DNA of 34,589 nucleotides from a virus. Positions 19,590 to 34,377 of the stretch are shown here, in pieces (the stretch's first letter is position 1; the number at the start of each line of letters is the position of its first letter). Location: the IMG/VR virus record IMGVR_UViG_3300027734_000190, positions 1 through 34,589 of that record; one strand, 5' to 3'. The notes under the pieces were generated by a model. The model made no database searches. It had not been told where the DNA came from and worked only from the letters and a program-made list of their open reading frames with translations. Both the position numbers and the translations under genes were made by a program.

Positions 19590-19799
19590 TGAAAAAAAGC
19601 CACTGGGTCCTTTTTGAAGGTGTTACCCGTTTTTCTGCCCTGGCCCCCTTTTCTGTGGCGCAAATCACCTAACCCTAGGGGGGGTCTTTCAAAGTAGATG
19701 TGACGAACACCACAGCAAAGGTCATTGGTGCGTGGGGTGCTAGGGCATAGTCTTGCGTTAGCAAGGTGGGAACCGCCCACATGCGGAACGGGGCTAACA
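19590..19799 (+). promoter_or_regulatory. Leader 0: CRP-type site, two hairpins, GGGGCTA start region
   Basis: The palindrome TGTGACGAACACCACA (19699-19714) is followed by GCAAAG as in the other leaders, 86 nt before the ATG. Two perfect copy-specific hairpins follow: CTTGC-GTTA-GCAAG (19752-19765) and GTGGG-AACCG-CCCAC (19766-19780); GGGGCTA then precedes the ATG. The TTTGTGTTG box and the CCCNCCCNCCC element are absent or degenerate here (GTGTTACCCG at about 19620). CCCTAGGG lies at about 19674. No coding sequence seen in this stretch. Confidence 0.6.
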
Positions 19800-20463: not shown

Positions 20464-20505
20464 AAGCGCCTCGCCCTCCCGTTCGGGGGCGGGGTGCTTT
20501 GCTTT
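20464..20505 (+). terminator. Intrinsic terminator (13-bp stem)
   Basis: AAGCGCCTCGCCC pairs with GGGCGGGGTGCTT (including G-T pairs), extended by CC/GG around CGTTC, and followed by TTGCTTT. Ends the transcript of the MGLDM gene before leader 1. Confidence 0.8.
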
Positions 20506-20523: not shown

Positions 20524-20707
20524 AATGTTTGTGTTGGTACCCGCCCTCCCAGTACCTAATCCCTAAAGGGAAGGGTGGAGAGAAGCTCGAACAGATGTTC
20601 GAACGCCGGGTGTGATGGACATCACAGCAAAGGTGCTTGGTGAGAGTGGCGAGAGATGAGAAGGTTCTCTTATCAGCGAAACCAAGTAACTGATAAAGGG
20701 GCTAGAA
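20524..20707 (+). promoter_or_regulatory. Composite leader 1
   Basis: TTTGTGTTG box at 20528-20536. Hairpin 1 GGTAC (20536-20540) with GTACC (20552-20556) encloses CCCGCCCTCCC. Hairpin 2 TCCCT-AA-AGGGA (20060+600: 20560-20571) follows, then a GGAGAGAAG run. CRP-type site TGTGATGGACATCACA at 20611-20626, then GCAAAG. Hairpins GAGAA-GG-TTCTC (20658-20669) and TTATCAG/CTGATAA (20670-20696) precede AAAGGGGCTAG and the ATG. CCAAATG before the box is shared with the leader at 26372. Confidence 0.75.
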
Positions 20708-21166
20708 ATGAAACTAACCAACAAGCAAGCACTTAGTGCTTACAATGAAATAGCGGAAGCGTTCGCCTCAAACGAACCCCTTCCAGTAAATGCGGTAAAT
20801 CTTATCGTCTACGCAATACAAGACTTACAGGTTCGTGACTATTTTCTTGGACACGCACCAATGTCTTTCGGTGTTGAAGGCGCGATTAAATTCGTTACCG
20901 AAATCCTTCCGTTAGTTGAGGAAGGTCACCGTTCACCGTTCTACACTTTACTATCAGCGTTCTACTATGAGGCAAACGATAAAGAGTTGGCGTATGTCTC
21001 ACTCGTTCAAGCACAATTGCTTGACCCTAATTACTCACTCGCTAAGTTACTCGACCGAGTTTACAAGGCAGGTTGGGCAACTGACGCAATGGCAACAATG
21101 CGCACCGAATTGCACCCGAAGGTAGTTGCAACCTTCGAAGTGGAAGAAGAGTTGGCTATCGCATAG
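20708..21166 (+). CDS. DUF4192-like protein
   Basis: 152 residues. The segment SPFYTLLSAFYYEANDKELA and ALLDPNYSLAKLL-like end (LLDPNYSLAKLLDRVYKAGW) match the C-terminal repeat of actinobacterial DUF4192 (Pfam PF13830; A-x-D-P-x-YSLA-x-LLD). Found in actinobacteria and their phages, function unknown. Shorter than the usual host protein, so this is the C-terminal half of the family. It stands alone between a leader and a terminator. Confidence 0.7.
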   Translation: MKLTNKQALSAYNEIAEAFASNEPLPVNAVNLIVYAIQDLQVRDYFLGHAPMSFGVEGAIKFVTEILPLVEEGHRSPFYTLLSAFYYEANDKELAYVSLVQAQLLDPNYSLAKLLDRVYKAGWATDAMATMRTELHPKVVATFEVEEELAIA

Positions 21167-21183
21167 CCAGCCCCAATGGAAAG

Positions 21184-21210
21184 CCCTCGGCAGAAATGCC
21201 GGGGGTTTTT
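21184..21210 (+). terminator. Intrinsic terminator
   Basis: CCCTCGGCA-GAAA-TGCCGGGGG followed by TTTTT: 9 bp with a GAAA tetraloop. Closes the DUF4192-like transcript. Confidence 0.9.
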
Positions 21211-21284
21211 CCATGCCCGGATCCTGGAGCTCGTTTTTTTAGGGGATGCCAAAATACTATTTTGCCCAAAGCCTCAATGCCTTA

Positions 21285-21449
21285 ATTGTTTGTGTTGGAC
21301 ACCCACCCTCCCAGTGTCCTATCCCTAAAGGGATCGGGAGGAGAGAGATGATGTGATGTAGATAACAACAAAGGGCATTAGTGCGATTGGCGAGAGATGA
21401 GAAGGTTCTCTTAGTTGAGGCGAACGACCTCAACGACAGGGGCTAAGAA
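21285..21449 (+). promoter_or_regulatory. Composite leader 2
   Basis: TTTGTGTTG at 21289-21297. Hairpin 1 GGACAC/GTGTCC (21297-21302 with 21314-21319) around CCCACCCTCCC. Hairpin 2 ATCCCT-AA-AGGGAT (21321-21334). GGAGGAGAGAG run. CRP-type site TGTGATGTAGATAACA (21353-21368) then ACAAAG. GAGAA-GG-TTCTC and GTTGAGG/CCTCAAC (21414-21434) precede AGGGGCTAAG and the ATG. The 70 nt before the box (AGGGGATGCCAAA...CCCAAAGCCT) also match the region before leader 5. Confidence 0.75.
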
Positions 21450-21716
21450 ATGAACGAAGAAAAAGCAATGAAAGTGTTTGACCTTATTAGCAAGACTGGT
21501 GATGAGGAATTGACTTCAGAGGAAGTTAGTTTTCTCAACAACAACCTTGCGCCTTTCACCTCAGTTCTAATTGAGGCAGGGGTTCATACAATGACCAAAG
21601 CGGGAATGGATAAAGAGGAAGCACTCTCTATCTTGGAATTGCTCGCAATGGTATCTCGTATGGCTGGTGCGTCAAACTTCGTTGATTTCGTCAATGTAAA
21701 ACAAATGGAGGGCTAG
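21450..21716 (+). CDS. Small acidic helical protein, unknown
   Basis: 88 residues, all-helical with alternating acidic residues (EEKAMKVFDLISKTGDEELTSEEV) and no Cys. First of two genes after leader 2, 4 nt before the next. No family recognised. Confidence 0.55.
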   Translation: MNEEKAMKVFDLISKTGDEELTSEEVSFLNNNLAPFTSVLIEAGVHTMTKAGMDKEEALSILELLAMVSRMAGASNFVDFVNVKQMEG

Positions 21717-21720
21717 ACAA

Positions 21721-22140
21721 ATGGCATCAAAAGCAATAACTGTAAAAGTTCCAACGGCAAAAGTAATAACTGCTCTACAAGCAAAGTTGGAAAAGATTGA
21801 GTTGGATTTTGCTTCTCAAGAATCCAATGATGCTCAATACCAAACGGCAATGGACGCGTGGCGCAAAGAAATTGGAAAGTGGGCTATTGACCGCTTCTCA
21901 AAGGCTTCTAACATCAGAACCAACTATCGTGAGTGGCAGAAAACTCTCAATGTTGATTTTGACATCACAGTTGATGAGAAAGAGTTTCCAAAAGAACCCG
22001 TGCGAGAACACGAAAAAATCCATCTTCACGAATACAAAGAGATGAAAGAGGACATTACAAATGCCCTTAGTATCTTGCGTATGACCGAAGAAGAAGTAGT
22101 AAATGCCTCAACTATGAAATCCATAGCAAGGTATCTATAA
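21721..22140 (+). CDS. Helical phage protein, unknown
   Basis: 139 residues: an N-terminal KAITVKVPTAKVITALQAKL, a central basic helix with WRKEIGKWAIDRFSK and a C-terminal acidic stretch ending in a bilobed EMKEDITNALSILRM helix. Resembles early phage proteins of unknown role. AGGGCTAGACAA precedes its ATG. Confidence 0.55.
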   Translation: MASKAITVKVPTAKVITALQAKLEKIELDFASQESNDAQYQTAMDAWRKEIGKWAIDRFSKASNIRTNYREWQKTLNVDFDITVDEKEFPKEPVREHEKIHLHEYKEMKEDITNALSILRMTEEEVVNASTMKSIARYL

Positions 22141-22152
22141 GAGAAGCGACCG

Positions 22153-22191
22153 GCTGCTCTGGGCTTCGGCTCAGAGCGGCGCGGGCCGCGC
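22153..22191 (+). terminator. Two adjacent GC hairpins, possible terminator
   Basis: GCTGCTCTGGGC and GCTCAGAGCGGC pair over 12 bp around a TTCG tetraloop (22153-22180); GCGCG-GGC-CGCGC (22179-22191) is an overlapping alternative. AAAAAG follows rather than T residues, so termination efficiency is uncertain. It lies directly in front of leader 3. Confidence 0.6.
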
Positions 22192-22197
22192 AAAAAG

Positions 22198-22362
22198 TTT
22201 GTGTTGGATCCCACCCTCCCTGATCCTTTCCCTTACAGGGAAGGTAAGAGAGAGATTCAGCTATGTGATGCACATCACAGCAAAGCCCCTTAGCGCTGGG
22301 GGATAGCGGGCTTATTGTTCAGTTATTAGAGAAGCACAGTATCTAATGGAATGGGGCTAGAC
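22198..22362 (+). promoter_or_regulatory. Composite leader 3
   Basis: TTTGTGTTG at 22198-22206. Hairpin 1 GGATC/GATCC (22206-22210 with 22222-22226) around CCCACCCTCCC. Hairpin 2 TTCCCT-TAC-AGGGAA (22228-22242). TAAGAGAGAG. Fully symmetric CRP-type site TGTGATGCACATCACA (22264-22279) then GCAAAG. CCCC/GGGG hairpin at 22287, and ATTAGA/TCTAAT (22325-22347) before TGGGGCTAGAC and the ATG at 22363. Confidence 0.75.
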
Positions 22363-22623
22363 ATGAGTAATGGAAGCAACGAATTTTGGAACGAATACTA
22401 CGGTTCATTCGTAGGCGCTCGCATTCTAAAATTTGAGGGCATGAATACCGAGGATGATTTAGGCGACGGGTTCCCTGAATTTACCGTTCAATTCGCAAAT
22501 GGTGAGATTGGACTAATCTCAGTATCACAAGACCCCGAGGGTAATGGCGGAGGATTCTTGTTCGGATTGGCATTACCTGCAGAACATCCACAAGGTGGGG
22601 AAGTGAGGACACTAAATGCTTGA
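22363..22623 (+). CDS. Small acidic protein, unknown
   Basis: 86 residues from MSNGSNEFWNEYYG; an in-frame ATG at 22351 would make the ribosome-binding region GGGGCTAG part of the coding sequence (MGLDM), so 22363 is preferred. Beta-rich, Gly-rich centre (DPEGNGGGFLFGLALP) and a DDLGDGFPEF acidic patch. No family recognised. Confidence 0.5.
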   Translation: MSNGSNEFWNEYYGSFVGARILKFEGMNTEDDLGDGFPEFTVQFANGEIGLISVSQDPEGNGGGFLFGLALPAEHPQGGEVRTLNA

Positions 22624-22732
22624 TGAATACACTAATAAAGAACTCATTGCAGAACTCATTGCACGTGGTGCGTATGACATTGACAATGACGGTCAAGCGC
22701 TTATTTACACGGGGGTGACCCCTGATGCCTAG
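22616..22732 (+). CDS. 38-residue acidic peptide
   Basis: MLDEYTNKELIAELIARGAY then DIDNDGQALI: one amphipathic helix and a short strand. Starts 8 nt inside the upstream gene and overlaps the next by 8 nt (ATGCCTAG), so expression is likely by coupled translation. Confidence 0.5.
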   Translation: MLDEYTNKELIAELIARGAYDIDNDGQALIYTGVTPDA

Positions 22733-22907
22733 ATTAGAAGTAGGTGATACCTACACTACGCAAAAGAATGGCGTTACTGGCGTAATCATGGAGATTGTGC
22801 CAAATGACACGGGCTCCACTAGATTGAAGTTGTTGACCGCGGATCTCGTGATCCGTTGGACGACATACGTTCCTGAGAGACTGGGGCAGGTAAAGGTTTC
22901 TCGTTAG
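22725..22907 (+). CDS. 60-residue beta-rich protein (KOW-like)
   Basis: MPRLEVGDTYTTQKNGVTGV then EIVPNDTGSTRLKLLTADL: Gly-Val turn and strands like a small KOW/SH3 barrel, a type often binding nucleic acid or ribosomes. Third gene of the leader 3 cassette. Confidence 0.5.
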   Translation: MPRLEVGDTYTTQKNGVTGVIMEIVPNDTGSTRLKLLTADLVIRWTTYVPERLGQVKVSR

Positions 22908-23082
22908 CCCCACTAAAGAGAAAGTGCTGGGTCACACTATAAAATGACCCTATAAATTTAGCTAGGCTGAGTCAAAGCTGGTTTTTTATTATTTGGTTAC
23001 AGCCAAAGCGTGTCCAGGATCCGGTTCCAGGGGAGACACAGCTGCTCGGCCTAGCTGCTCCATTTCGGCCGCTCGCAAAAAG
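22908..23082 (+). other. Intergenic stretch before leader 4
   Basis: No gene seen. Contains the hairpin GGGTCA/TGACCC (22929-22950), a TTTTTT run near 22984 (weak terminator), a GGATCC-type segment (CCAGGATCC around 23022) and AGCTGCTCGG/AGCTGCTCC direct repeats, also found near 23870. CGGCC/GGCCG precedes the AAAAAGTTTGTG of leader 4, as in leader 3. Confidence 0.5.
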
Positions 23083-23256
23083 TTTGTGTTGGCCCACCCT
23101 CCCCATTCTCTTTCAGAGGGAATAGTAGTAGAGAGAGCTCAGCTGCCGGGGATCCAGGTGTGACGAGCATCACAGCAAAGACTCTTCGCAGTAGGGGAGA
23201 GATAAGAGATAGTTCTACTACTAGCAAATCGCTAGTGATTGAGAAAGGGGCTAGAC
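23083..23256 (+). promoter_or_regulatory. Composite leader 4
   Basis: TTTGTGTTG at 23083-23091 directly followed by CCCACCCTCCC (23093-23103) without a clear hairpin-1 stem. Hairpin 2 ATTCTCT/AGGGAAT (23105-23123). GTAGAGAGAG. CRP-type site TGTGACGAGCATCACA (23159-23174), GCAAAG. Hairpin ACTAGC/GCTAGT (23220-23236) precedes AAAGGGGCTAGAC and a GTG start. Confidence 0.7.
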
Positions 23257-23814
23257 GTGGGTTACTACGTTTCGTTGCATTCATCAGATTGGGAGATTAC
23301 AGAATCTCCTGAGTTACTGGCAGTTCTAAAAGAAATGCCTACACGGTTCCATGCTATCAAGCGTGGCGGTTCATCTAATGGTGAATCATGGTTCTCATGG
23401 GTAAATGATGAGGACTTCGTCAAAGCGACTACATGCGAAGAGATTATCAACGCATTCGGTTTCGAGACATCAGAATCACAAGGCGTTGTATCTATAGATG
23501 GATACAACAACAAGACTGGACAAGAAGACGTCCTACTCGCAGTCCTTGCACCATTCGTTACAGAAGGTGCAGAAATGGAATGGAGTGGCGAAGAAGGCGA
23601 GCGCTGGCTCTACCTTGTCAAAGACGGCAAGTTATTTGTATCAGGTGAGATTCGCAAATGGGATGAGCCTGAGCCATACAAGTATCTTCACTACGATTTC
23701 CACACGGATGCAGATGGCAAAATGGTTACTGACACCAAGGTCATTGACATCTATGCGCCAATGCCAGAAGACTTAGTAAGTCGCTGGGATAAGAAGAAGA
23801 AGGTCGAAGCCTAA
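23257..23814 (+). CDS. Phage protein, unknown, GTG start
   Basis: 185 residues from GTG 23257, chosen because GGGGCTAGAC precedes it as in the other leaders; an ORF start further upstream would absorb this region. YYVSLHSSDWEIT near the start and WSGEEGERWLYLVKDGKLF are the kind of segments seen in a common but unnamed phage family. Basic end KKKKVEA. Stands alone between leader 4 and a terminator. Confidence 0.6.
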   Translation: MGYYVSLHSSDWEITESPELLAVLKEMPTRFHAIKRGGSSNGESWFSWVNDEDFVKATTCEEIINAFGFETSESQGVVSIDGYNNKTGQEDVLLAVLAPFVTEGAEMEWSGEEGERWLYLVKDGKLFVSGEIRKWDEPEPYKYLHYDFHTDADGKMVTDTKVIDIYAPMPEDLVSRWDKKKKVEA

Positions 23815-23827
23815 GAAGTAGAAGAAG

Positions 23828-23856
23828 CCCCTCAGCCAAAAGCTGGGGGGTTTTTT
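23828..23856 (+). terminator. Intrinsic terminator
   Basis: CCCCTCAGC-CAAAA-GCTGGGGGG followed by TTTTTT, a 9-bp stem with one G-T pair. Confidence 0.9.
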
Positions 23857-23931
23857 CATACCAGGATCCAGCTGCTCGATCGCGCCGGTAAATTTAGGGG
23901 TGCCAAATGTTATTTCCCAAAGCCTAATTTG

Positions 23932-24105
23932 TTTGTGTTGAACAGCCCTCCCACCCTGTTTAACCCTTTCAGGGAATGGGTAAGAGAGAGATTGATCCAG
24001 GCATGTGATGCAGATAACACCAAAGCCTATTAGCGAGAGAGACACGTGGGCATATGTTTATACCAGTGAGCAACACCGCTTACTAAATAGTGAAGGGCTA
24101 GGCAC
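23932..24105 (+). promoter_or_regulatory. Composite leader 5
   Basis: TTTGTGTTG at 23932-23940. Hairpin 1 TTGAACAG/CTGTTTAA (23938-23945 with 23956-23963, 8 bp) around CCCTCCCACCC, with the order of the spacer bases reversed relative to other copies. Hairpin 2 CCCT-TTC-AGGG (23964-23974). TAAGAGAGAG. Site TGTGATGCAGATAACA (24004-24019) then CCAAAG. Hairpin AGTGAGC/GCTTACT (24065-24084) precedes GAAGGGCTAGGC and a GTG start. Confidence 0.75.
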
Positions 24106-24351
24106 GTGAGACCACTATCTCAAATTGCTCAGGACATCGAGTCCGAGTGCGGTACCAAGGATTGGTACGTATATGCAGAAGCATATGTGACACCAATGAA
24201 ATCGCTTACATCTTTAAGCGATACATATGGCGCTGATAGCGCTGAATCTATAGTGCTCTACGCACTATCTAATCTCACCTCATGGCGAGGAGAGAGAGCC
24301 CGCAGTATCAAGGCGGAGCTCAACGGGATGCTCAAGGGGGTGAGTGCATGA
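24106..24351 (+). CDS. Small helical protein, unknown
   Basis: 81 residues, GTG start after AAGGGCTAGGC. Residues 1-50 are amphipathic helices; ends GMLKGVSA. ATGA overlaps with the next gene. No family recognised. Confidence 0.5.
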   Translation: MRPLSQIAQDIESECGTKDWYVYAEAYVTPMKSLTSLSDTYGADSAESIVLYALSNLTSWRGERARSIKAELNGMLKGVSA

Positions 24352-24806
24352 GCGTCGATACATATAACCCGAATGCGCTAGTTACTTATAAAAAGATAGC
24401 TGGCACCTATGCTGAACCAGAAGCACCAGAATACATTACCGACAAGGTAGTGGACCTCGAGTGGACGCTGCACCAAGGCCGCGAAGCTCGCACCGAAGCT
24501 CAAAAGCTCCGGGCCACAATAGCTTCGATCCAGGAGCACATGACCCGCAACGATTGGTATAACCCGAATACAGAAGCATCGGAGATCCTGGCTGCTCTGC
24601 AGGAGATCCTGGGTTACGAACCAAAAGCTGAAATTCGGATCACAGCTGTAATTGAAGTAGAGGTTACGGTTGAGCTCAACATGGATGAAGTAGAAGATTT
24701 CGATGCAGAGACCTGGATCAGTGATTGGGTCTCAGTAGATACCAGCTCGGGAGATTCGAGCTGTGATAGCTGGGCAGTTAGCTCAGCTGATTGGGAAGAT
24801 GCCTGA
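24348..24806 (+). CDS. Helical-plus-beta phage protein, unknown
   Basis: 152 residues from MSVDTYNPNALVTYKKIAG: an earlier in-frame ATG at 24282 lies within the preceding gene and is unlikely. Central coiled-coil-like helix (about 30-65), then the beta segment IRITAVIEVEVTVELNMDEV and an acidic C-terminus. Codon use is visibly more GC-rich (CTCGAG, CGCACC) than neighbours. Function unknown. Confidence 0.55.
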   Translation: MSVDTYNPNALVTYKKIAGTYAEPEAPEYITDKVVDLEWTLHQGREARTEAQKLRATIASIQEHMTRNDWYNPNTEASEILAALQEILGYEPKAEIRITAVIEVEVTVELNMDEVEDFDAETWISDWVSVDTSSGDSSCDSWAVSSADWEDA

Positions 24807-24978
24807 CGCATTAAGCATCGTGGGACGGCTGCTGGTCGAAGGGTCAGCAGCCTACCTAGATGCTAAAACAATCGATGAAGAGAATGGATATTCAGATGCT
24901 ATGGAATCCATGGAGAGAAAGTACTGGGAAGGGTACACAGATGCTCTCTATGAATTGGAAGCTCTGATTAATAAATAG
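24799..24978 (+). CDS. 59-residue acidic helical protein
   Basis: MPDALSIVGRLLVEGSAAY... an 8-nt ATGCCTGA overlap with the previous stop supports this start over one at 24763. Two acidic helices, no Cys. Function unknown. Confidence 0.5.
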   Translation: MPDALSIVGRLLVEGSAAYLDAKTIDEENGYSDAMESMERKYWEGYTDALYELEALINK

Positions 24979-24984
24979 CCCGGT

Positions 24985-25020
24985 GCGATCCTGGCGGCTT
25001 CGGCCGCTGGGGTTGCGCTT
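24985..25020 (+). terminator. Terminator-like 14-bp hairpin with TTCG loop
   Basis: GCGATCCTGGCGGC pairs with GCCGCTGGGGTTGC (several G-T pairs) around TTCG, then GCTTTGTTTG. It directly abuts the TTTGTGTTG box of leader 6, so the box overlaps the would-be U-tract. Confidence 0.75.
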
Positions 25021-25022
25021 TG

Positions 25023-25176
25023 TTTGTGTTGAATGCCCACCCACCCATTCACCCTTCGGGTTATTTTAAGAGAGAGCTCGCTCCTGGCGTGTGACGTACA
25101 TCACATCAAAGCCTATTGGGGAGAGAGGTGCCATAAGGTTAAATATGCATTACATCAACGACATGGAGGCTAGTTC
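25023..25176 (+). promoter_or_regulatory. Composite leader 6
   Basis: TTTGTGTTG at 25023-25031. Hairpin 1 TGAATG/CATTCA (25030-25035 with 25046-25051) around CCCACCCACCC. Hairpin 2 ACCC-TTC-GGGT (25051-25061), sharing one base with hairpin 1. TTAAGAGAGAG. CRP-type site TGTGACGTACATCACA (25090-25105) followed by TCAAAG. No clear third hairpin. GGAGGCTAG precedes the ATG, 72 nt after the palindrome. Confidence 0.75.
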
Positions 25177-25878
25177 ATGGAAAAGTTAAAGCGTAGTAAG
25201 GACCGCAAGGTAGCTAATTCTCTCACCGCATCGGGCGGCGTTAGAATCGCTAATTCTTTCGGTTTACCGGCGGGCAAGGCATATTCATGCCCTAGCGCCA
25301 CTAGTATATGCACACGCATATGTTATGCGGGCAAGCTAGAGAAGATTTACAAGGGTGTTAAGGCTAATCTCATTCACAATTGGGATTTATTGAGAGATGC
25401 CGATCATGACACTATGGAAGCACTATTAGAAGAGATGATTGCAGACTTTCGCAAGGATTGTGAGAAATGGGATGCGCCTAAAGAATTCCGTATCCATTGG
25501 GACGGGGATTTCTTTAAGCCAGACTACGCATTCGCATGGAAGCACGTTATTTTAAATAACCCGGATATTCTATTCTGGGCATATACACGTGTAGAATCTG
25601 CCGCGTACATGCTCAAGGGCATGGATAACCTAGCGTTATATTTCTCCACCGATACGGAGAATATGGAGGCGGCTAAGCGCTTAAGCGCACACGGTATCAA
25701 GCTCGCCGGGTTACATGAGACATTCTCTCAAGCCAAGGACATGCTCCTGGCATTAGGTGAGAGAGGGGCTAAGTGCCCGGAACAACGTAAGCAAATTCCA
25801 CTAGAGGGCGCATGCGTAGCATGCAGAATATGCCTAAAGGCGGATGCAAATATTACATTCTCAATAAGTAAGAGATAA
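25177..25878 (+). CDS. GP88-family phage protein
   Basis: 233 residues. C38, C44 and C48 in SCPSATSICTRICYAG, the HWDGDFF motif, FWAYTRVESAAY, LALYFSTDTENM and a late Cys cluster (CPEQRK...CVACRIC) match the actinophage GP88 family (Pfam PF17338, C-P-x-AT-x-C-x-x-x-CYA ... YFSTD ... C-x2-C). The Cys pattern suggests a metal or iron-sulfur site. Function unproven. First gene of the leader 6 cassette. Confidence 0.8.
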   Translation: MEKLKRSKDRKVANSLTASGGVRIANSFGLPAGKAYSCPSATSICTRICYAGKLEKIYKGVKANLIHNWDLLRDADHDTMEALLEEMIADFRKDCEKWDAPKEFRIHWDGDFFKPDYAFAWKHVILNNPDILFWAYTRVESAAYMLKGMDNLALYFSTDTENMEAAKRLSAHGIKLAGLHETFSQAKDMLLALGERGAKCPEQRKQIPLEGACVACRICLKADANITFSISKR

Positions 25879-26258: not shown

Positions 26259-26292
26259 AGTTGCTCCCGGTTCTTGCCCGGTCGAGCGCATG

Positions 26293-26337
26293 CTCCCAGC
26301 TACTGCTAGCCCGGTAGCTGGGAGTTTTTCTTTTTTT
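26293..26337 (+). terminator. Strong intrinsic terminator
   Basis: CTCCCAGCTAC pairs with GTAGCTGGGAG (11 bp) with a 10-nt loop, followed by TTTTTCTTTTTTT. Confidence 0.93.
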
Positions 26338-26371
26338 ATGGTTGTTTTTTTAGCCTACACCCATCCAAATG

Positions 26372-26475
26372 TTTGTGTTGACCCACCCTCCCCTTATCCC
26401 TTCGGGATAGGGTAAGAGAGAGAGGCTGTGACGTAAGTCACATGTGACATTACTCACGCAGTGATGTTCATCACA
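26372..26475 (+). promoter_or_regulatory. Composite leader 7, proximal part with three stacked CRP-type sites
   Basis: TTTGTGTTG at 26372-26380, then CCCACCCTCCC (26382-26392) without a hairpin-1 stem. Hairpin 2 is the longest copy: CCTTATCCC-TTC-GGGATAGGG with 9 bp (26392-26412). TAAGAGAGAG. Three palindromes follow at 16-17-nt steps: TGTGACGTAAGTCACA (26427), TGTGACATTACTCACG (26443) and AGTGATGTTCATCACA (26460), i.e. about 1.5 helical turns apart. Confidence 0.75.
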
Positions 26476-26890
26476 GTAGAGTTGAGTCGGGCCGGCTCAA
26501 CTTTGCTGAGTCCAGCCCATTCAAGCTAATTCCACCGGGAATTTGCGATCTCGAGAGAGATGAGAGAGAATGAGCTGAAGAGAGAGAGAAGGAGAGAGAG
26601 AGAGAGAGAGCCAAGCTAAATAGCCGACATTAAATGTCGACAAATCGACTGATTAGGCTACTGTGAGCCACATCACAGGACTCCGCAGTTATGCCACCAG
26701 CTCTACAGCCTGTTCAGCCTGAACATATGCGTATATGTGAGAGATATCGCTTGAATAGGCTGAATATGCGATCTCAGCCCGGTAGAGACTAAAGCAGCAG
26801 AGATAGCAAGCCAGGATCCATATGATTCTCTCTCATATGCTCTCTCTAGTAGAACAAGGAGAAGTAAATCTATTTCGGGCCCATCCGCCA
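26476..26890 (+). promoter_or_regulatory. Expanded control region with inverted repeats (no gene seen)
   Basis: About 415 nt without a convincing gene. Contains a further CRP-type site TGTGAGCCACATCACA (26662-26677), inverted repeats CGACAT-TAA-ATGTCG, TGTTCAG/CTGAACA (near 26710), ACATAT/ATATGT (near 26724) and CATATGA/TCATATG around CTCTCTC runs (near 26820). An origin of replication or complex enhancer are possible; I see no promoter consensus. Confidence 0.5.
26551..26610 (+). repeat. GA-rich polypurine tract
   Basis: GAGAGAGATGAGAGAGAATGAG... then an uninterrupted (GA)n run at 26592-26610. It echoes the GAGAGAG purine run conserved in each leader, so may have grown from it. Could adopt triplex structure or slip; length may vary between isolates. 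Confidence 0.7.
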
Positions 26891-26981
26891 CGTGATGCAG
26901 GTCACAGCAAAGGTACTTAGCCATAGCGCCATCAAGCTCTAATGTTCTCTATATCAAGCAAACAACGAAATGGAGCAAAAA
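26891..26981 (+). promoter_or_regulatory. Leader 7, distal part (CRP-type site and ribosome-binding site)
   Basis: CGTGATGCAGGTCACA (26891-26906) followed by GCAAAGGTACTTAG as in other leaders, 76 nt before the ATG at 26982. The TGGAG ribosome site replaces GGGGCTAG. No strong hairpin in between. Confidence 0.6.
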
Positions 26982-28075: not shown

Positions 28076-28366
28076 ATGGCAGTAAAAGCATATGAAAACC
28101 TCAAACCAACTGCGGATTTATGGGAATGGCAAAATCAAGGTAATTGCGTAGGCAAGGATCCTGAGATGTTCTTTTTAGAGCATAACATGCGTGACTCCAT
28201 GAAGCGCAAGAAAGAAACAGAAGCAAAAGCTGTGTGCAAAAGTTGCCCGGTAATTGCTAAATGTTTAAATCACGCGTTAAGTGTCCCTGAAGCCTATGGC
28301 GTATGGGGAGGCTTAAGTGCTGATGAAAGGTTTTATTACAACACTAAGAGAAGGGTAAACGCATGA
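28076..28366 (+). CDS. WhiB-like [4Fe-4S] transcription regulator
   Basis: 96 residues. Four cluster Cys at 24, 54, 57 and 63 (C...C-x2-C-x5-C), then GVWGG (75-79) and a short basic C-terminus with KRR. This is the WhiB (Wbl) family, which binds region 4 of the primary sigma factor in actinobacteria and reports redox or nitric oxide state. Phage copies (e.g. WhiB of mycobacteriophage TM4) repress host whiB2 and cause septation defects. Overlaps the methyltransferase start (ATGA). Confidence 0.95.
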   Translation: MAVKAYENLKPTADLWEWQNQGNCVGKDPEMFFLEHNMRDSMKRKKETEAKAVCKSCPVIAKCLNHALSVPEAYGVWGGLSADERFYYNTKRRVNA

Positions 28367-29097
28367 AGGCTGTATCGCTGTTTGCTGGTGTAGGTGGATT
28401 TGATTTAGCGTTGGAGAATGCTGGTGTATCAGTCGTTGCTTCATGTGAAATCGATAAACACGCACGAGCTGTGCTTGCAAAACAATTTCCAAACTCAAAA
28501 CTAATCAACGATGTAAAGGATGTAACAGGTGATCAACTTAGAGAACTCGGATTCAACGGTAGTGAAGGAATTATTGTCGGAGGATTTCCATGCCAGGATC
28601 TGTCCGTTGCGGGAAAACGAGCAGGACTTGCTGGCTCTCGAAGTGGACTCTTCTGGGAAATCTGTCGCATCCTCGACGAAACGAAAGCGAAATGGTTCGT
28701 CCTCGAAAACGTCCCCGGTTTGCTGTCATCTAACGACGGAGCAGACATGGGCACCGTCCTCCAAGCGTTGGCTGAGCGCGGGTATGGGGTCGCATACAGG
28801 ATTCTTGACGCTCAGCACTTCGGAGTCGCCCAAAGAAGGCGTCGAGTCTTCATTGTTGGATGTCTTGGAGACAACGGGAGCGCACCTGCAGAAGTACTTG
28901 CTCTCATCGAGGGCATGCGAGGGCATCTTGAGACGAGCGACAAAAAGAGGAAAGTCATTGCCAGCGCTACTCCACTCAGCACTCGAGCGGGGGATGGAAG
29001 AAAAGTAGCTAACGCTATTCCAGCAGAGATTTACCATCATGCAACAGTAGTCAACCAAGATGTGGACAGTGGTCACCTTGTGGTTCATCAAGAGTAG
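28363..29097 (+). CDS. C5-cytosine DNA methyltransferase, N-terminal part (frame ends early)
   Basis: 244 residues ending at a TAG. Motif I FAGVGGFD, motif IV GGFPCQDLS with the catalytic Cys, motif VI ENVPG and motif VIII QRRRRVF (AQRRRRVFIVG) are present. Motifs IX-X lie in another frame, at 29060-29827. A single-base change in about 29084-29096 would join both parts to about 487 residues, with continuous sequence VVHQ followed by RRAQTVDDFETW. Either a real or sequencing indel, a split gene, or a recoding site. Together the parts would methylate cytosine C5, protecting phage DNA from restriction. Confidence 0.85.
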   Translation: MKAVSLFAGVGGFDLALENAGVSVVASCEIDKHARAVLAKQFPNSKLINDVKDVTGDQLRELGFNGSEGIIVGGFPCQDLSVAGKRAGLAGSRSGLFWEICRILDETKAKWFVLENVPGLLSSNDGADMGTVLQALAERGYGVAYRILDAQHFGVAQRRRRVFIVGCLGDNGSAPAEVLALIEGMRGHLETSDKKRKVIASATPLSTRAGDGRKVANAIPAEIYHHATVVNQDVDSGHLVVHQE

Positions 29098-32916: not shown

Positions 32917-32917
32917 T
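32901..32917. promoter_or_regulatory. Palindrome AACATATCCGATATGTT (copy 1)
   Basis: AACATAT and ATATGTT pair perfectly around CCG. It lies at the stop codon of the 32917-34377 gene and upstream of the reductase. An inverted copy (AACATATCGGATATGTT) lies inside that gene at 33551-33567, and the shared stretch extends to 18 nt. Could be an operator or hairpin terminator without T-run. Confidence 0.45.
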
Positions 32918-34377
32918 TATTCTTCTATTGCTTGCTTAATTATGGTCGTGGTGTCCTCTTCACTGATCCCACCGTTAGGTATTTCTTTTAAGATTTGAGC
33001 TTTCTCGCCAAATATTTGAGACAAAACTCCAGCGTTTCCTTGGCGCTCTACGGTCATTCTAATGAACTCTCGCGAATCGTCCAATTCTTTAGTTGTTTTA
33101 ATTAATTTAAACAAACGATCAATCTCTTGGCTAACATTTGGGTCAGCGTACCCGCCGTTCATTTCTTCAGCAAATCGCATAAAAGCAACTCTTTGCCCCT
33201 GCATTTCGATGATTGCGTTAATCAAACTCTTAAGTTGATCTTTAGTCTTTACTTCAATAGGGAGTTTAAATGCACAAGTATTTTGAGGTTTAAACGCTGG
33301 GCAATTTGATGCAATAAAGCACGTGTCGCACTGTCGCAAACTTGTGTCATGTGTACGAATTACTGGAACATCTTTTAGTACGTCGTTACCTGAATCATCT
33401 CGTTCAACAATGGTCTTTATTTCAAATCCAAAGACAGGTAAATTGCCCATTTCTTCTGGATTTCTAGGTTGAAGTTTCCGCATCTCTACCCCCAACCTAT
33501 CCGATACTGCGGGTACGTTTTCCGCATAATCTTCACCAGCTGGATCTTCAAACATATCGGATATGTTGCCCACTTTGGTTAACCTCGTCTCTAATTGGTC
33601 AAAAGACCAAACTGCTAATTTACAAAGTTCTTCTGAATCATCTCCGACTATCTTGTCAAAGTCTAAACCAGCCTTTTCGTACACGGCCTTGTGACGTGGA
33701 CGAGCTTGCTCTTTCATGCTCTTTGGGTAGCGTACCAGTCTGGTTCCGTCCCAGACGATAGTTTCTCCACGAGTCATTGGCGATAGCCACGAAAGTGTTG
33801 CTGCGCTTTCCACAGGCACCTGACGCAAGTTGTCTGGTCGGGCTGTACCCAAAGCGTGAAAGCGGCTTCCTTCTGTCCTTACAAGCCTCTGTGTGACTCC
33901 TGATAGCCACGTGTGATCTTCTAGGGACTCACCGGGAAGGGCTACATCCAAGTACTTGGCGGTTAGTTCGCCTAACCCCTTTTGACCAGTTTGAGGGTTC
34001 CAGACAGGCAAGAACTTGGCTGGTGGCATTTCCGCCCAGACAGTTTCTCGTTGATCTCGAACAAAGTCAGGGCTTACTTGAAAGTGGTTAATTTCTGTGA
34101 ATTGGTTAAGGCGTTCAATATTGTTGACTATAAACTCTTCATAATCAGCGGCAAACTCTTCCAGCTCTGTGCGGCCAATCTCTTGGGCTCTTGGTATTCC
34201 GGGGTGAACCAGAATGCTCATGCCTTCTGGAAAATAGTTCTCTAATAAATAAATCTTGGTCTTGGGTAAGCCCCGTTTAACTAAACGCCAGTAACTTACG
34301 CCAACAGACGTGGCTCCAGCTGAGCCTAAAAGGATGCGATTGCTAGGGACTTCTGCCCCAAGGTAAATAATCTTCAC
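32917..34377 (-). CDS. Putative TGT/DpdA-like base-exchange enzyme with C-terminal Cys cluster
   Basis: 486 residues, GTG start overlapping the upstream stop. N-terminal MKIIYLGAEVPSN and the region RFHALGTARPDNLRQVPVES...LSWLSPMTRG (about 168-205) resemble the tRNA-guanine transglycosylase fold as used by phage DpdA proteins (H-x-LG...S-x-SWL), which insert 7-deazaguanines into DNA. The C-terminal third has CDTCFIASNCPAF-x5-TCAF, a four-Cys metal site, and a helical tail (EMNGGYADPNVSQEIDRLFKLI). Catalytic Asp residues cannot be assigned by eye. DNA modification is a tentative call; no queuosine-synthesis genes are in this window. Confidence 0.45.
   Translation of the reverse strand: MKIIYLGAEVPSNRILLGSAGATSVGVSYWRLVKRGLPKTKIYLLENYFPEGMSILVHPGIPRAQEIGRTELEEFAADYEEFIVNNIERLNQFTEINHFQVSPDFVRDQRETVWAEMPPAKFLPVWNPQTGQKGLGELTAKYLDVALPGESLEDHTWLSGVTQRLVRTEGSRFHALGTARPDNLRQVPVESAATLSWLSPMTRGETIVWDGTRLVRYPKSMKEQARPRHKAVYEKAGLDFDKIVGDDSEELCKLAVWSFDQLETRLTKVGNISDMFEDPAGEDYAENVPAVSDRLGVEMRKLQPRNPEEMGNLPVFGFEIKTIVERDDSGNDVLKDVPVIRTHDTSLRQCDTCFIASNCPAFKPQNTCAFKLPIEVKTKDQLKSLINAIIEMQGQRVAFMRFAEEMNGGYADPNVSQEIDRLFKLIKTTKELDDSREFIRMTVERQGNAGVLSQIFGEKAQILKEIPNGGISEEDTTTIIKQAIEE
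33551..33567. repeat. Palindrome AACATATCGGATATGTT (copy 2)
   Basis: Perfect reverse complement of the element at 32901-32917, here inside the coding sequence of the base-exchange-like gene (codons for NISDMF). Both copies are near-perfect palindromes 650 bp apart. Confidence 0.45.

Follow-up and report, generated by a model that had tools for sequence, protein, structure and literature searches.

The DNA analyzed here is the IMG/VR virus record IMGVR_UViG_3300027734_000190, taken over its whole length of 34,589 bases (the window). Seven of its intergenic regions, between 20.5 and 26.4 kb, carry a repeated element in which a G and TTTGTGTTG are followed by CCCNCCCNCCC; the TTTGTGTTG copies start at positions 20528, 21289, 22198, 23083, 23932, 25023, and 26372. 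CCCNCCCNCCC is matched exactly in all seven, and with up to one mismatch it has 10 matches in the window, a count equalled in none of 100 shuffles. An earlier note on this DNA had described five copies in which stems of differing sequence surround a C-triplet loop, and all five were located and read as described (Table 1), with the C-triplets of CCCNCCCNCCC inside a copy-specific stem; the copies at 23083 and 26372, for which the note had reported the triplets without the stem, were likewise found so.

Distribution and forms of the element

IMG/VR DNA was searched with the pattern TTTGTGTTG-N1..12-CCCNCCCNCCC, which matched 70 stretches (IMG/VR loci are given as L numbers below). The element was present in most of them, several per contig, usually in one cluster and one orientation. 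Deduplication left 140 pattern matches: 56 of form A, in which a stem surrounds the C-triplets (a few B-like alleles included), 65 of the stemless form B, 14 of form C, and 5 unrelated or atypical matches that were set aside. The family is anchored by GTTTGTGTTG, and two scans that left the anchor out of the pattern hit no stretch beyond those it had already retrieved; the hits coincide with anchored copies, lying nine bases after TTTGTGTTG wherever the two sets were compared. The anchor is thus essentially invariant. The same pattern scan of 84,980 prokaryote genomes returned 52 matches, every one unrelated on reading, and 50,697 GenBank phage records held no match to a 53-nt element query or to array DNA. 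WhiB was present in 24 of the 24 contigs searched, which points to actinobacteria as hosts, and the element-bearing viruses probably infect abundant freshwater actinobacteria. Judged by terminase, the closest named phages belong to the BRock group of Streptomyces phages (54% identity); kinship with the small-gene array of Streptomyces phage BRock was rejected, since the first 16 kb of that phage, which contain the array, hold no element. Most copies share the strand of the downstream gene and stand between same-strand genes, often about 60–90 nt past the stop codon and 150–170 nt before the start codon according to rough open reading frame (ORF) calls.

Form C is closed at its far end by CAACACAAAC, an inverted copy of the anchor. 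Form D emerged from scans for anchors facing their own inverted copy at 45–137 nt, which yielded approximately 57 foldbacks of 65–99 nt with perfect arms of 18–27 bp, mostly variable in sequence; the scans include a few unrelated matches (e.g., L207, L209). In 44 of the roughly 57 elements the arms extend beyond the constant GTTTGTGTTGG/CCAACACAAAC to a total of 19–27 bp, with 27 different arm sequences, and the interior holds either a hairpin accompanied by single-stranded sequence on one side or a perfect three-way junction (L018, L165). Forms C and D thus keep the ends, while the interior is replaced by long perfect foldbacks. Different forms can be mixed in one array, as in the contig of L016, where A/B-type, D, and C elements occur together. 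In a further subtype, CATNCCCCTACGGGGAATCGAGAGAG is fused to a GC-rich hairpin (L080, 8198–8273; similar in L009, L022, L028, L049, and L067), and in L080 its GAGAGA side adjoins the terminator of a putative sigma-factor gene.

The loops and spacers obey rules of their own. The bases that follow CCCC and GGGA in form B are identical to each other in 62 of 62 copies (A/A 24, G/G 22, T/T 16); for A and G the identity holds in 46 of 46, compared with a maximum of 34 in 10,000 shuffles, and each of these two bases shows the coupling in 20 or more distinct contexts. Elements ahead of the same gene family in L033 and L041 carry A/A and G/G, respectively, within nearly the same loop. As linkers between C-triplets, T,T is never used (about 9 expected), and the stretch between GGGA and GAGAGA of forms A and B holds copy-specific short tandem repeats (GTTGTTG, GTATGTATG, ATACATACA, ATATATA) with a mean repeated span of 3.7, against 2.4 ± 0.24 in shuffled sequence. 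The second hairpin has UUCG-type loops. Other readings of these features were considered and rejected: a peptide encoded by ATG-TTT-GTG-TTG, because the 5' arm lengths, judged by eye, are no multiples of three; a bottom-strand G-quadruplex, attractive for its one-nucleotide linkers and the avoidance of T,T, because most form B copies have three G-tracts only; and a pseudoknot of the C-triplets with a downstream GGG, which is not universal, some copies having GGA only.

Covariation and base pairing of the stems

Form A stems comprise 5–6 bp in two registers, with either an arm ending in C and an 11-nt loop or an arm ending in G and a 10-nt loop. A copy's own arms pair over a mean of 4.26 bp, in comparison with 2.13 bp (standard deviation 0.12) when arms were shuffled among copies with the same register freedom, and the set holds a few chance pattern matches that lower the observed pairing. 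With 27 distinct rows in the first register alignment and 13 in the second, 88% and 94% of the cells are paired, and both sides have changed in 42 cells of the first (shuffled 12.5 ± 3.3) and 22 of the second (shuffled 8.4 ± 2.4), while the covariation scores are 0.753 (shuffled 0.228 ± 0.036) and 0.800 (shuffled 0.290 ± 0.063); each of these counts and scores was reached in 0 of 500 shuffles, and all are somewhat favourable to structure, since each copy was assigned the register in which it pairs best and a single row of register 2 that paired poorly was omitted. Sliding the arms by a single column abolishes the signal. The earlier note had taken the compensating changes between copies as selection on secondary structure and had proposed covariation in an alignment with homologues as the check; the signal there is strong and decisive, and the stems are real and under selection for secondary structure.

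Whether DNA or RNA is the folded molecule was approached through the G.T content of the helices, counted with a mismatch-neutral hairpin search. The terminators adjacent to the elements contain 47 G.T and no A.C pairs in 787 bp, as expected of RNA, whereas the elements contain one G.T in 576 bp (Fisher p = 1.2e-10, form A stems entered as ~235 bp): none internal to 48 form A stems, 0/108 bp in the second hairpin, and 1/233 bp in form C hairpins. With a second counting method the values were 0/504 for C and 5/794 for D, as opposed to 94/1678 and 17/693 for terminators. The G.U cells of the first register alignment are confined to the outer end of the stem and to alleles with a loop longer by one base. 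Watson-Crick-only pairing beside G.T-bearing terminators makes the DNA fold the most likely object of selection, rather than an RNA fold, which is where we depart from the earlier note. One caveat concerns form D: template switching can make palindromes perfect, and this bears on their Watson-Crick purity.

Position of the elements and candidate functions

An intrinsic terminator precedes most copies, and predicted promoters follow six of the seven in the window. Eight of the nine TGTGAYNNNNRTCACA-like dyads of the window are followed by exactly 10 nt (nCAAAGnnnn), TTnGnn, exactly 17 nt, and a -10-like hexamer, a geometry of 16-bp dyad, 10 nt, TTnGnn, 17 nt, and TAnnGT-like -10 hexamer; across spacer lengths, the match count peaks sharply at 17. 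Relative to the start sites predicted from this geometry, the elements span about -145 to -65 in 6/7 copies, and the start codon follows the predicted start site by 26–41 nt (36–38 nt in 4/6). Having a terminator upstream and a predicted promoter downstream, the element stands between the two, and its DNA would be largely untranscribed. The placement of the elements in leaders, as put forward in the earlier note, is not sustained, the predicted start sites lying 65–145 bp downstream of the element and an intrinsic terminator usually upstream.

Table 1. Elements, predicted transcription signals, and genes of the window
Feature	Positions	Strand	Description
Element 1, form A	20527–20583	+	GTTTGTGTTG; GGTAC (20536–20540)/GTACC (20552–20556) stem around CCGCCCTCCCA; second hairpin ATCCCTAAAGGGA; GGAGAGA
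Element 2, form A	21288–21348	+	GGACAC (21297–21302)/GTGTCC (21314–21319) stem; second hairpin; GGAGAGAGA
Element 3, form A	22197–22255	+	GGATC (22206–22210)/GATCC (22222–22226) stem; second hairpin; AAGAGAGAGA
Element 4, form B	23082–23136	+	without stem 1; CCCACCCTCCCC-A ... GGGA-A, identity-coupled bases
Element 5, form A, second register	23931–23991	+	(TT)GAACAG/CTGTTT(AA) stem (TTGAACAG, 23938–23945; CTGTTTAA, 23956–23963; one G.T); second hairpin
Element 6, form A, second register	25022–25075	+	TGAATG (25030–25035)/CATTCA (25046–25051) stem; second hairpin ACCCTTCGGGT
Element 7, form B, T/T allele	26371–26424	+	CCC(CT)TATCCC-TTC-GGGATAGGG
Operator-promoter of first block	19699–19753	+	no element ahead
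Operator-promoter 1	20611–20665	+	TGTGATGGACATCACA, 10 nt, TTGGTG, 17 nt, GAAGGT
Operator-promoter 2	21352–21406	+	geometry as operator-promoter 1
Operator-promoter 3	22264–22318	+	TTAGCG, 17 nt, TATTGT
Operator-promoter 4	23159–23213	+	TTCGCA, 17 nt, GATAGT
Operator-promoter 5	24004–24058	+	TTAGCG, 17 nt, TATGTT
Operator-promoter 6	25090–25144	+	TTGGGG, 17 nt, TTAAAT
Operator-promoter past non-coding stretch	26891–26945	+	no element directly ahead
Intrinsic terminator upstream of element 1	20464–20499	+	
Intrinsic terminator adjoining element 6	24982–25019	+	T-rich tail continues into GTTTGTGTTG
Intrinsic terminator upstream of element 7	26292–26325	+	
Gene block 1, DUF4192-domain protein	20708–21166	+	12 homologues in compared arrays
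Gene block 6, GP88 family protein	25177–25878	+	Pfam PF17338, E 7.6e-45

The TGTGAYNNNNRTCACA-like dyads resemble CRP/GlxR-type sites, and the eight TGTGA-N6-TCACA-like dyad promoters between 19699 and 26945 may constitute a phage regulon, perhaps borrowing a host regulator of the CRP/GlxR type. Operators at the same position in other phages include CGTTATC repeats, CGGCGTGTCG, and the DnaA-box-like CTGTGGATAAC. Of the 57 D elements, 31 have a DnaA-box-like sequence no more than 60 nt downstream; CTGTGGATAAC mostly lies 0–10 nt past D elements (L016, L049, L067, L167, L173, and others) and there occupies the position of the CRP-like dyad of the window. The T/T allele of element 7 (CCCTTATCCCTTCGGGATAGGGT) is the last of the array in many of these phages, and in the window a non-coding stretch (26372–26900) with three tandem dyads, GA-rich tracts, and ATGTCGACAAATCGAC lies downstream. 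Among the genes, the GP88 family gene is shared with mycobacteriophages (~52% identity), and several related contigs also carry it in their arrays. A protein encoded at 32917–34377 on the minus strand is 33–34% identical to Streptomyces phage proteins, one of them annotated as a DpdA-like tRNA-guanine transglycosylase, and 28363–29097 (plus strand) encodes a C5-cytosine methylase. Judging from these two genes the phage DNA may be modified, and deazaguanine, if present in it, would disfavour quadruplex or triplex readings of its G-rich strand.

Conservation, covariation, Watson-Crick-only pairing, and placement relative to predicted signals are observed. Our tentative interpretation, to which we give somewhat less than an even chance, is that the GTTTGTGTTG elements are a family of intergenic DNA elements set between the terminator of one early cassette and the operator-promoter of the next, where a protein-bound fold would serve as cassette boundary. 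The ability of the DNA to fold, either as a single strand or as an extruded hairpin, would be what selection maintains, with GTTTGTGTTG and the C-triplets as the recognition sequence. Negative supercoiling behind an RNA polymerase leaving the downstream promoter might open the element, and a phage or host protein could bind the folded form, reading both the anchor and the fold. With less support, the resulting complex might isolate each independently regulated cassette, acting as a topological insulator and a barrier to read-through.

Several points weigh against such a protein-bound boundary. Folded on the top strand, none of the single window copies does better than its shuffles (z from +0.2 to -1.1), so that the seven copies alone are weak and homologues were needed to settle the structure. 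Form B lacks stem 1, and the form A stems, with 5–6 bp around 10–11 nt, are too weak for unaided extrusion; moreover, short stems tolerate G.T poorly, and Watson-Crick purity therefore counts for less in form A than in C and D. Since no element adjoins the promoter-like sites at 19699 and 26891, it is dispensable for some promoters, and element 7 has no adjacent promoter; the modules are thus separable. The CATNCCCCTACGGGGAATCGAGAGAG subtype in L080 is oriented opposite to its flanking genes, the identity rule of form B is accounted for neither by Watson-Crick pairing nor by an insulator role, the binding protein is putative, and the insulator role is drawn from placement.

Two more specific functions were rejected, namely gene-specific regulation, as a given gene family can stand behind different element alleles in the compared arrays and alleles are not tied to particular genes, and copy-specific stems as orthogonal addresses, as copies within one phage differ no more than copies from different phages; both observations argue against gene-specific regulation or addressing. 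A bolder and doubtful extension of the boundary interpretation is a structural code at the level of DNA, in which an untranscribed foldback, nearly free in sequence and maintained in its Watson-Crick folding, would occur once in each cassette, be recognized through GTTTGTGTTG by a protein dedicated to it, and organize independent early transcription units in actinophages. The architectures of such a code (C-triplet stem, stemless C-triplet, multi-branch, 18–27 bp foldback, perfect three-way junction) would be interchangeable, and if true, it would represent a new kind of genome organizer. Untranscribed structured DNA under selection has rarely been documented in double-stranded DNA phages, and since the family offers well over 100 natural variants with freely changing stems, its recognition rule is directly testable.

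It is unlikely that the elements are instead part of the upstream transcript, with GTTTGTGTTG as the U-rich tail of the terminator and the stems as a back-up terminator, a stabilizer of the RNA 3' end, or an RNase III site. A GC-rich hairpin does end at most 10 nt upstream in 53% of copies (24% shuffled), the terminator adjoining element 6 runs on into the anchor, and many D elements come directly after a terminator T-run, but the element stems lack the G.T pairs of those same terminators, no U-run follows the element's own stems, and GTTTGTGTTG is kept where no hairpin adjoins.

Improbable, too, is a part in recombination, whether as a cassette boundary or as a foldback mobile element, in which a structure-recognizing enzyme would act on folded DNA as on attC sites or miniature inverted-repeat transposable elements (MITEs). 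DNA hairpins that are diverse in sequence and conserved in structure, one per cassette, would suit this role, as would the constant inverted ends of C and D and a gene order that varies between phages. However, tyrosine recombinase (PF00589), serine resolvase, and Y1 HUH transposase (PF01797) were not found in 18 contigs, several of them incomplete, in searches with positive controls, which weakens the case; in addition, element alleles do not strictly travel with genes, no target-site duplications were seen by eye, and the end motifs of attC are missing.

The chances are slim that another polymerase or a primase uses the element as a hairpin promoter or single-stranded start signal, in the manner of the N4 early promoters. 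One element stands ahead of each cassette, mostly in gene direction, and in N4 hairpins, too, non-conserved stem bases may vary so long as the arms remain complementary (PMC4496689), yet the loops are 10–11 nt with C-triplets and not 3 nt, some promoters have no element, and no very large polymerase ORF was found, the largest listed ORF of a 96-kb contig having 1200 aa; a search with PF00940 (T7-type polymerase) was silent, as were its controls. Slimmer still is the prospect of a 5' leader RNA that controls the gene behind it by its structure, as suggested by the shared strand and the UUCG-type loops, because six elements lie upstream of their predicted start sites and not in the 26–41 nt predicted leader, phage-specific operators intervene between element and gene, internal G.U intermediates are absent although a leader RNA would tolerate G.U, and the window has no Rfam match at gathering level (only two chance-level ones, E 1.6 and 4.7, at lax thresholds).

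Comparison with known systems

Integron attC sites are folded DNA with conserved structure, variable sequence, and constant ends (RYYYAAC ... GTTRRRY), one per gene cassette. The elements share these general traits but end in GTTTGTG ... CACAAAC, no integrase was found in the 18 contigs, and the cassettes have their own promoters. Repetitive extragenic palindromes (REP), bacterial interspersed mosaic elements (BIME), and MITE-type palindromes are intergenic palindromic DNA located after terminators, a position shared by the elements, and the inverted constant ends of C and D add to the likeness; here, by contrast, the interior is almost unconstrained, no Y1 transposase was found, and one copy per cassette occurs at a fixed position.

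The start-associated sequences (SAS) and extended SAS (ESAS) of cluster K mycobacteriophages, whose function is unknown, adjoin the start codon and carry consensus 17-bp inverted repeats ahead of many small genes (PMC3203893). They resemble the elements as repeated intergenic inverted repeats ahead of small actinophage genes, mostly in one orientation, but here the stems are free in sequence with no arm consensus, the anchor and the C-triplets are the conserved parts, and the promoter lies downstream of the site; in six copies, 100 nt or more separate the end of the element from the start codon. The promoter-terminator stem-loop (PeSL) cassette of T4-type phages, as described in citing papers (PMC4503421, PMC4177764), is a module of early promoter and terminator stem-loop between small genes that mediates module exchange. 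Both systems repeat a composite of terminator and early promoter between small genes of a plastic region; the arrays compared here differ in a third, structured DNA module with covarying stems between terminator and promoter. The N4 early hairpin promoter (PMC4496689) parallels the elements as a DNA-level hairpin whose variable stem bases are free provided that complementarity is kept, but it has a 5–7 bp stem with a 3-nt loop centred near -11, as opposed to the larger loop here, no very large polymerase ORF is among those listed for the 96-kb contig, and the element lies upstream of a sigma-70-like promoter. Each of the compared systems shares one or two properties with the family, which does not clearly coincide with any of them and is placed here among the intergenic repeats of phages that have a regulatory or structural role; it would be a third module beside terminator and promoter in interchangeable early-gene cassettes.

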